Positions 26,444 to 32,052 of a stretch of 32,094 bases of DNA are shown piece by piece; positions within the stretch are counted from its first letter, which is position 1; every line of letters begins with the position of its first letter. The notes under the pieces are model-generated. The model searched no databases. It saw nothing but the letters and a program-made list of their open reading frames with translations, and had not been told where the DNA came from. The DNA is from a virus. The position numbers were made by a program, and so were the translations under genes. The stretch spans positions 1 through 32,094 of IMG/VR virus record IMGVR_UViG_3300044641_003119; one strand, given 5' to 3'.

Positions 26444-27610
26444 TTAGTATTTGTATTGTCCAATTGATATTGCATATGTTCCTTTCTTTTGTGCTTTCTG
26501 TGATAACTTCATCATACAACAATACCTCGCCGCATCTATTAAGTGGTCTAATCCACCTTCAGGGTTATCCGTTGTATATCCGTATTTGTCAGTTGCGTAT
26601 TGGTAAGCATACATCTCATTGATTAGATTCTGTGATTTATTGTGTATGAATATCTTATGGTTTTGCATTACACCTATACCAAACTTAATACTATCCTTTC
26701 CTTTTACAACAGGCTTAATATTAAATCCACTTCTATATAGTTCTTCAATTAGACGAGGTTCTGCACTATCTGCCCATATCTCTTCACTCTTGCTGATATC
26801 TAACTCTCTTAACTTATTTACTATGTCGTTTGTTACTAATCCTCTTTCGTAAAGTAACTCTTCCAAAAAGATTTTATCGCCACTTTTATAAACAGCACAA
26901 AGAGCAGTGGGGTCGCTGCTAAACCCAAAGTCAAGCCCAAAACCCACAAAGTCAGCGTCATACTCACCACATAACTCAAATTGAAAAATTGCTTTATCAT
27001 TAGGAGCAAACTCACCCTTTCCATATATTTTCCATTTCTTTTCATTCGTATGTTGTAAATCTTCAATTGCTTTAACCATTTCTTTGGAGATATAGGGATT
27101 ATCAGCATAGTTCGTAGTATATCGTTCACAATCCTGCATCTGTCTTAACCAATGATATGGTGACACCGTAGGGTTATATGCCAGTATTATCTTACCTGTT
27201 GTTCTAATACTTAGCTGAAAATAACTTTCTTCATCTATCTCTGATGCTTCGTCAATGAATAGTATGTCTGATTTTAATCCTCTTAACTTTTCAGGGTCAT
27301 CTGAGTTTATAAATTGAACTACACTATCTTGCAACTTATATGTTCTATCACTTACATTCCAATTGTCCTCATTGAATACACCTAATGATTTAACTATGTC
27401 TATGAAATCCTTTATAACAGTTCGCTTGAGTGATGGTATAGTTCTTCTAACAATAGTAATCGTTTGTTGTAGTTTCAATGCTTCTACAATAACATACTGC
27501 AAGATACCAAATGTTTTACCACTTCTCGTACCACCTATGTGATGTGTAACTCTATGCTTACTATCTAATAGATGTTCAAATGTAATCGTAGTGTTAATCT
27601 CTATGTTCAC
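26444..27610 (-). CDS. terL: Terminase large subunit
   Basis: The protein has 388 residues. The N-terminal ATPase has Walker A GGTRSGKT (26-33), Walker B ILFIDEASE (D120, E121) and the coupling motif AYNP. The C-terminal RNase H-like nuclease has acidic motifs GLDFGFSSDP (D227), WADSAEP (D281) and GLDHLIDAARY (D355/D359). This complete set defines the DNA-packaging motor and headful or cos nuclease. The gene overlaps the small subunit by 17 bases on its 5' side. The length is at the short end for the family but all motifs are present. This is the most certain call in the window. Confidence 0.95.
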   Translation of the reverse strand: MNIEINTTITFEHLLDSKHRVTHHIGGTRSGKTFGILQYVIVEALKLQQTITIVRRTIPSLKRTVIKDFIDIVKSLGVFNEDNWNVSDRTYKLQDSVVQFINSDDPEKLRGLKSDILFIDEASEIDEESYFQLSIRTTGKIILAYNPTVSPYHWLRQMQDCERYTTNYADNPYISKEMVKAIEDLQHTNEKKWKIYGKGEFAPNDKAIFQFELCGEYDADFVGFGLDFGFSSDPTALCAVYKSGDKIFLEELLYERGLVTNDIVNKLRELDISKSEEIWADSAEPRLIEELYRSGFNIKPVVKGKDSIKFGIGVMQNHKIFIHNKSQNLINEMYAYQYATDKYGYTTDNPEGGLDHLIDAARYCCMMKLSQKAQKKGTYAISIGQYKY

Positions 27611-27893
27611 TATCTGCTCTGTTTATATTAATACTTACTTGCTGTATTCTATGGTCTATCTCACCACTTATCTCCATTGATGATTTCTTTGGCACAATGT
27701 ATTCTAATAATTTCAGATAAAGCTTTGCTGCTTCTATTGGATTTTCTTTTCTTATCTTTTCAAAATCTTCTGTAATGTTATCTAATCCTTTATTAGCTAA
27801 TCTAGCAATTGCAAGTTTTGCCTGTTCGGTACTCCTATTAAGAGAACCAACCTTTCTTCCACCTAATTTATTTCCTACTTCAAACTTTGCCAT
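27594..27893 (-). CDS. terS: Terminase small subunit
   Basis: The protein has 99 residues. It begins MAKFEVGNKLGGRKVGSLNR, the 'F..GN..GG.K.G..N' opening typical of small terminase subunits in Bacteroidota phages, followed by a helical part (LAIARLANKGLDNITEDFEK) and EAAKLYLKLLEYIVPKKSS. It recognises the packaging site and regulates the large subunit. It overlaps the large-subunit gene by 17 bases, and the late element L1 stands upstream, so packaging genes form the first late unit. Confidence 0.8.
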   Translation of the reverse strand: MAKFEVGNKLGGRKVGSLNRSTEQAKLAIARLANKGLDNITEDFEKIRKENPIEAAKLYLKLLEYIVPKKSSMEISGEIDHRIQQVSININRADSEHRD

Positions 27894-28221: not shown

Positions 28222-28675
28222 AGTGTCCTCTTGTATCCGGATATTCTTTCTTAATCATATTCCTAGACCTTTCTTTTTTGTCAGAGTCAGCTCGTCTATC
28301 TAATATCCATTCTAATATACCATTTTGTTTTATTTCATTTAACTGATTATCATAATGCTTTGTTATAATAGTTCTATCACCTGTCTTTCTATATTCTTTC
28401 CATGCATTACTTAATTTAGTCCGAATAGTACAAAATCTATTACTTGCTTCACTACTTCTATTGTTAAACGGATATTTCTCTTTTGGTTTCATTCCTGCCC
28501 ATTTGCCAGTTGGTATTAAACCAGTATCACCATATTTCTTTTTAGCCTCATCAAAGTTTACCTTTGCTACACACTTCTTACATCTCCAACTTGGTTTTAA
28601 TGTATGAAATGATTCACCACATAACTTACATTCTCTTTGTTCTCCTATTGTTCTATTAAATGGTTTCTTAAACAT
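28211..28675 (-). CDS. Zinc-finger protein, 154 aa
   Basis: Residues 16-35 (CKLCGESFHTLKPSWRCKKC) form a four-cysteine zinc ribbon or treble clef. The rest is basic and helical (KWAGMKPKEKYPFNNRSSEA, SNRFCTIRTKLSNAWKEYRK, LEWILDRRADSDKKERSR). It is likely a DNA- or RNA-binding protein. It overlaps the sigma-like gene by 8 bases, which fits a shared role in transcription or DNA processing, but no enzyme motif is visible. HNH-type motifs were looked for and not found. Confidence 0.65.
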   Translation of the reverse strand: MFKKPFNRTIGEQRECKLCGESFHTLKPSWRCKKCVAKVNFDEAKKKYGDTGLIPTGKWAGMKPKEKYPFNNRSSEASNRFCTIRTKLSNAWKEYRKTGDRTIITKHYDNQLNEIKQNGILEWILDRRADSDKKERSRNMIKKEYPDTRGHYEE

Positions 28676-29222
28676 CTTTAAACGGATTCTCTAATGTGCT
28701 TTCTAAATACTTTCTTATTTTCTTAACTGAAAGGAATACTGTTGACTTACTTATCTTTATATCATTTGCTACTTCATCAAGAGTTTTGTCCGACATCCAA
28801 TATAGTTCAAAGATTTTGGCTTGTGGCCACATTCTTGTTACTTTTAACTTATTCAACTCTTCTATCACTTCATTGTGTGCATTCTGCAATTCCAAATCTC
28901 TATCTACATCATATTCCTCTTCCATTACTTCTTCAGGCATCTCTTCTTTGTATACAACTCTATTCAATTTCTTTGTCTTATTAATCCATCTGCTTTCTAA
29001 AAAACGATAACAATAAAACATATTGTATGCATTACCCCAAAATATCTTTGGATTACATTTCTTATGTAAATACTCATAGAGTTCTTGTACTAAATCTTCA
29101 CCTTCTTCTTTATTTTTGGCAATCTTTGTTGCATGTTTAATTAACCAATGATTAGAATCGATATATAGATTGGTTAACCTTTCTTTACATTCATTGTATT
29201 GTATACTACCTGAATCTATCAT
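28668..29222 (-). CDS. Sigma-70-family (ECF-like) RNA polymerase sigma factor
   Basis: The protein has 184 residues. Residues 20-85 (NHWLIKHATKIAKNKEEGED, LVQELYEYLHKKCNPKIFWG, NAYNMFYCYRFLESRWINKT) have the sigma region 2 layout, with the 'A....DLVQE....L' core. A charged acidic linker (95-120) follows. Residues 135-172 (KIFELYWMSDKTLDEVANDI, KISKSTVFLSVKKIRKYL) form a region-4-type helix-turn-helix. Such two-domain proteins direct polymerase to alternative promoters. The gene lies in the early operon, just ahead of late genes that carry a shared promoter-like element with an AAC half, so it is the best candidate to read that element. The binding is inferred, not shown. Confidence 0.7.
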   Translation of the reverse strand: MIDSGSIQYNECKERLTNLYIDSNHWLIKHATKIAKNKEEGEDLVQELYEYLHKKCNPKIFWGNAYNMFYCYRFLESRWINKTKKLNRVVYKEEMPEEVMEEEYDVDRDLELQNAHNEVIEELNKLKVTRMWPQAKIFELYWMSDKTLDEVANDIKISKSTVFLSVKKIRKYLESTLENPFKDV

Positions 29223-31087: not shown

Positions 31088-31282
31088 TTATAATTTAATC
31101 ATTCCACATTGACCATCGTAGTCTTTGTTCGTTAATCTATTTAACCATTCTTTTCTCTCGCAGCAACCACACGACTGATATCCCATTTGTTTTGCAATAA
31201 AAACTGCAATACGACCACCAAATCCAAAACTGATACAATGTATCAATGCTTCTGCGTAGTCTCCTAATTTAATCCATTTCAT
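31088..31282 (-). CDS. Small CGCC-motif phage protein, 64 aa
   Basis: The protein reads MKWIKLGDYAEALIHCISFG, then FGGRIAVFIAKQMGYQSCGC and CERKEWLNRL. A 'LGD......H..S.G.G.R.A..IAK..GY..CGCCER...LN' layout is a recurring small protein of phages. The Cys cluster (CGCC plus C16 and C59) may bind zinc. It follows the GIY-YIG gene by one base (TAATATG). The function is unknown. Confidence 0.65.
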   Translation of the reverse strand: MKWIKLGDYAEALIHCISFGFGGRIAVFIAKQMGYQSCGCCERKEWLNRLTNKDYDGQCGMIKL

Positions 31283-31283
31283 A

Positions 31284-31808
31284 TTAATTTTTTTTATTTA
31301 AACTTATATTTTGAGCTTTGTTTAAAGTAATGAATGCAGACTCTAATTCTTTTAATTGATTTCTTGTTAAGCCAGGACATTCTTTTACTACTTTAAATTC
31401 GTGATTATCAATGCCAAATTTATCGAATGAATCATGTAATAATCCTAATCTGTCTCTCTTACCTTCTGATGCTCTCCTATAATGTCTCCTGTGTTCATTT
31501 AATCTAACTATGAAATGCATCATACTCATACCAATATATTGAAATCCATCAGGGTTTTTAATTGAATATATAATTGGTGTTTTATCTGCCTTTCTGTATC
31601 TTTTAACATAGTCAATAAAAGTATCCCAATTTTTATCCTGCCACTGCTTATGATGTGTTGGATTTATTTCAGTTCGGAATTTTAGATTTGTTTCTTTGTT
31701 GCATTCCTTACATTGATACTGCAATCCACCTTTGTTTGATTTACATTTACTGAATTGATTTGTGTCTTTTGATTTGTGACACCTGTTGCATTGTTTTTGA
31801 TTTGCCAT
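31284..31808 (-). CDS. GIY-YIG endonuclease with N-terminal zinc finger
   Basis: The protein has 174 residues. Cys 7, 10, 33 and 36 (CNRC and CKEC) make a treble-clef-like zinc finger for DNA binding. Residues 78-156 hold a GIY-YIG nuclease core: IIYSIKNPDGFQYIG (79-93, where IYS stands for GIY), catalytic Arg102 in IVRLNEHRRHY, 'L..SFDKFG...F....', and Glu in QLKELESAFI (about 153-155). Such stand-alone enzymes are often homing nucleases in phages and can also act on host or rival DNA. It is the first gene of the early operon, 23 bases after P2. The start region, AAGATGGCA, is complementary to the loop of the upstream RNA candidate. Confidence 0.75.
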   Translation of the reverse strand: MANQKQCNRCHKSKDTNQFSKCKSNKGGLQYQCKECNKETNLKFRTEINPTHHKQWQDKNWDTFIDYVKRYRKADKTPIIYSIKNPDGFQYIGMSMMHFIVRLNEHRRHYRRASEGKRDRLGLLHDSFDKFGIDNHEFKVVKECPGLTRNQLKELESAFITLNKAQNISLNKKN

Positions 31809-31830
31809 CTTTTATGTTTTGTGTTTATGT

Positions 31831-31860
31831 AATATACGACTAATTTCTGATATTAACAAA
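31831..31860 (-). promoter_or_regulatory. Bacteroidota-type promoter P2 (early operon)
   Basis: On the minus strand TTTG (31857-31860), 20 bases, then TATATTAC (to 31829). It matches P1 in spacing, in the TAATAT block after TTTG and in the CG before TATATT. It stands between the terminator at 31890 and the GIY-YIG start, so the early operon has its own promoter. Confidence 0.6.
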
Positions 31861-31889: not shown

Positions 31890-31930
31890 TAAAAAGAGCC
31901 GAAGAAGATGGCACTCTAAACTTCGGCTCT
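31890..31930 (-). terminator. Intrinsic terminator of the RNA candidate
   Basis: AGAGCCGAAG and CTTCGGCTCT (31921-31930 with 31895-31904) form a perfect 10-bp stem with a 16-nt loop. TTTTT (31890-31894) follows in the minus-strand RNA. The long loop is unusual for a terminator. Confidence 0.9.
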
Positions 31931-32016
31931 ATAATATGTTGAACAGGAACTTTATAATGTAATGCTAAATAGCGATAAAGTATTTTTTAATCCTGTCTTT
32001 TATAAGAACATATTAT
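31890..32016 (-). ncRNA. Candidate structured small RNA, about 127 nt
   Basis: No open reading frame of note exists between promoter P3 and the terminator, yet the stretch is full of nested complementary arms. ATAATATGTT/AACATATTAT (32007-32016 with 31931-31940) is a perfect 10-bp closing stem that begins about where transcription should start. Inside it ACAGGA/TCCTGT (31943-31948 with 31991-31996) and ACTTTAT/ATAAAGT (31949-31955 with 31975-31981) are stacked with a one-sided 9-nt bulge. GCT/AGC (31964-31966 with 31971-31973) forms the tip with a 4-nt loop. A hairpin terminator ends it. It is not a tRNA: there is no T-arm or anticodon arm. Confidence 0.6.
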
Positions 32017-32020
32017 GTTT

Positions 32021-32052
32021 CAAATATAGTAAAATTATTTTACATCTCCAAA
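32021..32052 (-). promoter_or_regulatory. Bacteroidota-type promoter P3 (RNA candidate)
   Basis: On the minus strand TTTG (32049-32052), 20 bases, then TATATTTG (32021-32028), a perfect match to TTTG / TAnnTTTG with the same spacing as P1 and P2. The -33 box lies in the 3' end of the truncated gene. Expected start of transcription is near 32016, the first base of the closing stem. Confidence 0.75.

Follow-up and report, generated by a model that had tools for sequence, protein, structure and literature searches.

A new family of structured phage RNAs with a terminator loop that matches the start region of a neighboring endonuclease gene

The DNA analyzed here (the window) spans 32,094 bases and is a virus record. 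Its host is probably a member of the Bacteroidota, since the nearest relatives of its terminase among named phages are Flavobacterium phages (36%). A small RNA (sRNA) locus lies between the stop of an upstream gene (32035) and the start of a homing-type endonuclease gene (31808). All of its elements are on the minus strand, which the original prediction had left unstated. The locus has the look of a compact regulatory unit of the phage.

The sRNA promoter (32021..32052, minus) is a perfect match to the Bacteroidota type, with TTTG (32052-32049) separated by 20 nucleotides from TATATTTG (32028-32021) and with the -33 box inside the 3' end of the upstream gene. The original prediction had placed a perfect TTTG-N20 promoter here and had taken the -33/-7 form to be that of Bacteroidota, which agrees with the published consensus of TTTG/TANNTTTG (PMC6847099). 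TTTG-N20-TATATT occurs only twice in the whole window, at this promoter and at a second promoter at 31860. Transcription is predicted to start at about 32018-32016 and, judging from promoter, terminator and fold, to yield a small RNA of about 126-128 nt (31891..32018, minus). Across the family, 27 of 33 loci have TTTG-N18-22-TAnnTT ahead of the RNA, compared with a background of 0.11 per stretch of equal length; a perfect consensus promoter just upstream was absent from the other six. Four loci without an adjacent promoter (L018 at 4302, L011 at 3888, L097 and L068) have TTTGGAAATATCA..AAAAAGTTGTAACTT some 86-102 nt upstream of the RNA, which suggests a longer transcript in those phages. A scan for E. 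coli-type promoters and terminators was uninformative for Bacteroidota. Own promoter and intrinsic terminator are both present in the DNA, and we infer that the sRNA forms an independent transcription unit, as had been proposed.

Folding and covariance-model alignment delimited a conserved core, P1-P4 (31931..32016, minus). The predicted closing stem P1 has 10 bp (32016-32007/31940-31931) and begins at the expected first base, as anticipated. It encloses two inner stems of 7 bp each, P2 (31997-31991/31948-31942) and P3 (31981-31975/31955-31949), and a small tip, P4, with a 3-bp stem (31973-31971/31966-31964) and a 4-nt loop. The nested arms and the tip were as originally described; of the inner stems, given as 6 and 7 bp, the 7-bp stem stands as P3 and the 6-bp stem does not, P2 having 7 bp. 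Between P2 and P3, fold and family alignment leave an unpaired bulge on the 5' side, UUAAAAAAU (31990-31982). No other unpaired part of the RNA is as conserved as this bulge, UUAAnnnAAU (window 31982-31990, minus). After the core comes the strong intrinsic terminator that had also been described originally (31891..31930, minus), with a 10-bp stem (31930-31921/31904-31895), a 16-nt loop (31920-31905) and a UUUU run (31894-31891), ending at 31891. The folding energy of the minus-strand RNA was -34 kcal/mol, compared with -19.8 ± 3.5 kcal/mol for dinucleotide shuffles (z = -4.1), and none of 200 shuffles was as stable as the real RNA.

The gene-free stretch, put at about 127 nt in the original prediction, measures about 126 nt. 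The longest ATG frame within the RNA has 19 codons and lies on the opposite strand, and when a conserved reading frame was looked for across the interval, none was common to the homologs. No tRNA or tmRNA was detected, and Rfam gave no match at the gathering threshold and nothing credible at a relaxed one, in line with the earlier view that this is not a tRNA, tmRNA, 6S RNA or known riboswitch. Readings as a 6S-like, packaging-RNA-like or CRISPR-related element were dropped, as the matching features were absent.

Relatives were fetched through the adjacent endonuclease, a downstream sigma-like protein, the upstream gene, an endonuclease profile and an HNH family met in the process; all family loci come from metagenomic contigs. 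The first homolog, L002, has the RNA in the same position and with the same fold as the window, with quite different stem sequences. Ten relatives were used to build a covariance model for the P1-P4 core, and its matches, down to an E value of about 0.02, placed the RNA at more than 30 distinct loci in related phages. In a 32-sequence alignment fitted to the structure by this model, two-sided compensatory changes were seen in 24 of 27 base pairs (128 such cells), and standard pairs filled 92.8% of pair cells. P4, for example, occurs as GCU/AGC, GCC/GGC and GGC/GCC. The covariation score was 0.458; shuffles scored 0.155 ± 0.012, and no slid register scored above 0.115. Seventeen sequences folded singly gave largely the same helices. 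Covariation in related phages had been put forward as a check on the prediction of a structured small RNA, and the prediction came through it strongly. Because two-sided changes reach nearly all pairs and the score stands so far above the shifted controls, we conclude from these alignments that the RNA is a genuine structured RNA; it has no Rfam relative and is a new family.

A first motif scan returned one true homolog and four chance matches. A looser 19-base scan returned 76 further loci, mostly chance, among which the covariance model matched two, both on already-known contigs, showing that the model is specific. One weak model match (L023, 3190-3315, minus) has its own terminator and lies on the strand opposite to the neighboring genes; no matching gene start was found near it. 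DNA searches of named phages with the window RNA returned only chance matches and promoter fragments, as did searches with L040. The GIY-YIG protein had no match in named phages, the upstream gene had one remote match, and the searches run gave no cultured phage carrying the RNA.

The gene following the RNA in the window encodes a 174-aa protein with a zinc finger and a GIY-YIG-like domain (31284..31808, minus), matching PHROG 314, homing endonuclease (1.1e-10). Within its family, one of seven members had a weak Pfam GIY-YIG match. Other phages have in its place either a shorter GIY-YIG protein or an HNH protein of one of two types (HNH_3). The homing-type class is thus assigned from PHROG matches in the window and from HNH_3 and weak GIY-YIG Pfam matches in relatives, with activity predicted. 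Because unrelated endonuclease types follow the RNA across phages, the endonuclease has been exchanged while the RNA stayed; of homing, such exchange of genes was all that was seen at the site. No related endonuclease was found in bacterial genomes.

Extra HNH endonuclease genes were also observed on either side of the sRNA (L038, 3236-3967; L021, between 3746 and 4316), insertions that make the site look like a hotspot for genes of this kind. In nearly all relatives the endonuclease gene is followed by one for a 64-aa protein (window 31088-31282, minus) that carries a conserved CGCC..R..WLN motif and matches no Pfam or PHROG family.

A second promoter, TTTG-N20-TATATTAC (31829..31860, minus), lies between the terminator and the endonuclease gene, which it would serve. 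Nearly every locus has the same order of RNA, promoter close to TTTGGTAATATCAG...TCGTATATTAC and endonuclease gene, and the downstream promoter was present in 27 of 33 loci (background 0.11 per stretch). These data bear on a possible leader role of the RNA for the endonuclease operon, either as a riboswitch or as a transcription attenuator, the latter being an alternative raised at the outset. Promoter, folded domain, terminator and gene do follow one another as in a leader. However, a conserved promoter of the gene's own follows the terminator, the genes behind the RNA are exchanged endonucleases of unrelated families, no Rfam riboswitch matched, and no alternative anti-terminator pairing was seen in the window RNA, whose minimum-energy and centroid structures agree. 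We regard a leader of this kind as very improbable.

In the second promoter not only the boxes but also the spacer between them is conserved (TTTGGTAATATCA......TCGTATATTAC, window 31829-31860, minus), and similar copies precede other genes in relatives (L002 at 3499, L011 at 4201, L021 at 2972, L025 at 3153 and L034 at 1680); the exact motif was not found in bacterial genomes. Such promoters may form a class specific to the phages, with a site for an activator. A few genes downstream of the sRNA locus, ahead of the terminase genes, lies a gene for an RNA polymerase sigma factor-like protein (PHROG 1740, 1.2e-8; window 28668-29222, minus), and this protein might read the conserved promoters.

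A likely function for the RNA is suggested by a feature absent from the original prediction, complementarity between the terminator loop and the start of the endonuclease gene. In the window the loop seed UGCCAUCUU (31905..31913, minus) pairs perfectly with AAGAUGGCA (31811-31803), which spans the start codon (AUG at 31808). The 9-mer AAGATGGCA occurs once on the window coding strand. When the 36 gene starts of the window were ranked by their match to the loop, the endonuclease came first, and the second-ranked gene (27594-27893) had a 6-nt match. The predicted fold leaves six bases of the loop, UGCCAU, unpaired essentially all the time. Unconstrained cofolding did not predict the loop-target interaction, standard cofolding being unable to form hairpin-loop kisses.

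Across the family the terminator stem varies freely, while the loop keeps a motif close to UGYCAUY. In nearly every locus this motif is reverse-complementary to the start region of the endonuclease behind it; the seed is 6-10 nt long. Loop and target change together, in the pairs UGCCAUCGG/CCGAUGGCA, CCAUCUUA/UAAGAUGG, UUUGCCAAU/AUUGGCAAA, UAGUCAUU/AAUGACUA, GUCAUAUU/AAUAUGAC and UCAUACU/AGUAUGA, and between phages UGUCAUU/AAUGACA switches to UGCUAUU/AAUAGCA. The clearest contrast is between L034 and L073, which have near-identical loops and leaders with a two-base difference on each side (UUUUUUGUCAUUCG to UUUUUUGCUAUUCG and AAAAUGACAA to AAAAUAGCAA). The change removes the AUG, and the gene start has moved further down. 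In L043, L073 and L089 the target AAUAGCAA contains no start codon, yet it matches the altered loop UUGCUAUU, and in L030, L055 and L056 the AUG in the target is out of frame with the gene. Because the target lacks an AUG in phages such as L073 and has one out of frame in those three, start-codon conservation cannot explain the match. Loop-target matches were weak in L045, L078, L052, L068 and L011.

The mean perfect run between loop and target was 7.97 nt for own partners and 6.36 ± 0.24 nt for swapped ones (permutation 0/20,000). With one locus per unique loop the values were 7.5 and 6.02 ± 0.26 nt (permutation 0/100,000). With about 100 nt between them, loop and target can pass on together through inheritance or recombination, and these tests therefore remove relatedness only partly. 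In a loop-target alignment anchored on the loop motif and the start region, with unusual rows anchored by hand, 90.8% of cells were paired, six of eight pairs had two-sided changes, and the score was 0.295 compared with at most 0.129 when slid. Mapped onto a tree of the endonuclease protein, the loop trait and the target trait each show five changes, and these fall in the same rows; only two contrasts are well supported, and five are too few for a formal test. Together these comparisons show that loop and target co-vary between phages, with relatedness only partly controlled.

The RNA might instead act mainly on other targets, whether host or phage RNAs or a protein binding the core and the UUAAnnnAAU bulge, with the match to the endonuclease start being a secondary or self-limiting interaction. 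Core and bulge show far more conservation than an antisense loop would call for. AUGACA and AUGGCA starts are also common, so that the seed could match several mRNAs, that of gene 27594-27893 for example. Against this, in 18 of 32 loci the best target within the locus is the endonuclease start, where about three would be expected, and the loop tracks unusual changes of the endonuclease start region alone. We consider a main role on other targets unlikely.

Our preferred reading, to which we give a probability of about 0.6, is that a self-standing sRNA represses translation of the adjacent endonuclease by pairing of its loop with the start region, probably in trans. The sRNA would be made from its own promoter and end at the intrinsic terminator, with the P1-P4 hairpin as a conserved scaffold, perhaps for stability or protein binding. 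The seed of about 6-10 nt in the terminator loop would then pair with the translation-start region of an endonuclease mRNA that begins at the second promoter. With the start paired in this way, ribosomes would be shut out and little of the selfish endonuclease would be made. Flavobacterium mRNAs have no Shine-Dalgarno sequence and initiation depends on an unpaired start region; in F. johnsoniae, start-region pairing tunes translation (PMC6847099). Because initiation on such mRNAs needs an unstructured start, pairing at this position should block it. The sequence itself shows the fold, the promoters, the terminator and the loop-target complementarity with its co-variation, whereas transcription, a trans mode of action and an effect that is repressive, not activating, are inferred. 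The antisense role alone would not seem to explain the conserved core.

The same pairing could operate in cis. After read-through of the terminator, the loop would pair with the start region about 80-110 nt downstream and stop translation, so that the endonuclease would be translated only from mRNAs begun at the second promoter. The complementarity data fit this equally well, and loop and target are always near each other on the same strand. In T4-type phages, hairpins at the start region hold down I-TevI, Aeh1 mobE and, by implication, T4 segB (PMC3014915). As in our locus, RNA pairing at the start restrains a phage homing endonuclease, but those hairpins form within the mRNA, whereas here the complement is in the loop of a separate RNA with its own promoter and terminator. 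A cis block would have no need of a strong terminator and a dedicated sRNA promoter, nor of a P1-P4 fold that is conserved though it lies outside the loop-start pairing. An endonuclease gene inserted in L038 moves the matching start to about 800 nt away without loss of the match, though the insertion may be recent. A block in cis is the main rival, possible but clearly less probable. We favor action in trans because the sRNA has its own promoter and a strong terminator and the gene has a second promoter.

Lambda OOP and P22 sar are phage antisense RNAs with their own promoter and terminator, transcribed from the strand opposite their targets and with long perfect complementarity to them. The RNA described here resembles them as a small, independent phage unit predicted to repress a neighboring gene by base pairing. 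It differs in lying on the same strand beside its target, with a loop seed of 6-10 nt kept by compensatory change. An exposed hairpin-loop seed aimed at a start region is known from the RNAI/CopA type in plasmids and the SprX/RNAIII type in staphylococci; the present RNA shares this feature, but it has no such Rfam match and its predicted target is a single adjacent phage gene. A review of phage sRNAs describes CfrI of cyanophage S-PM2, an antisense transcript between psbA and an endonuclease gene with a proposed role in intron mobility (PMC12197685). CfrI is alike in being a phage RNA linked to a homing endonuclease gene. We know of no structure common to CfrI and the window RNA. The mechanism would thus be of a known kind, that of an antisense sRNA, in a new RNA family. 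Our literature search, of incomplete coverage, found no description of such an RNA, only cis hairpins for this class of target, and no phage-encoded small RNAs in Bacteroidota phages. To our knowledge few phage-encoded small RNAs are known at all.

The locus adds a new RNA family that covaries strongly and whose predicted target is specific and itself backed by covariation between two molecules. It points to phages using RNA to keep their own mobile endonucleases in check. More tentatively, at somewhat under even odds, the resident trans-acting sRNA may be a dedicated silencer of whichever endonuclease fills the site, its loop being retuned as the starts change. If that is true, it would amount to a truce, struck through RNA, between a virus and the parasites it carries.
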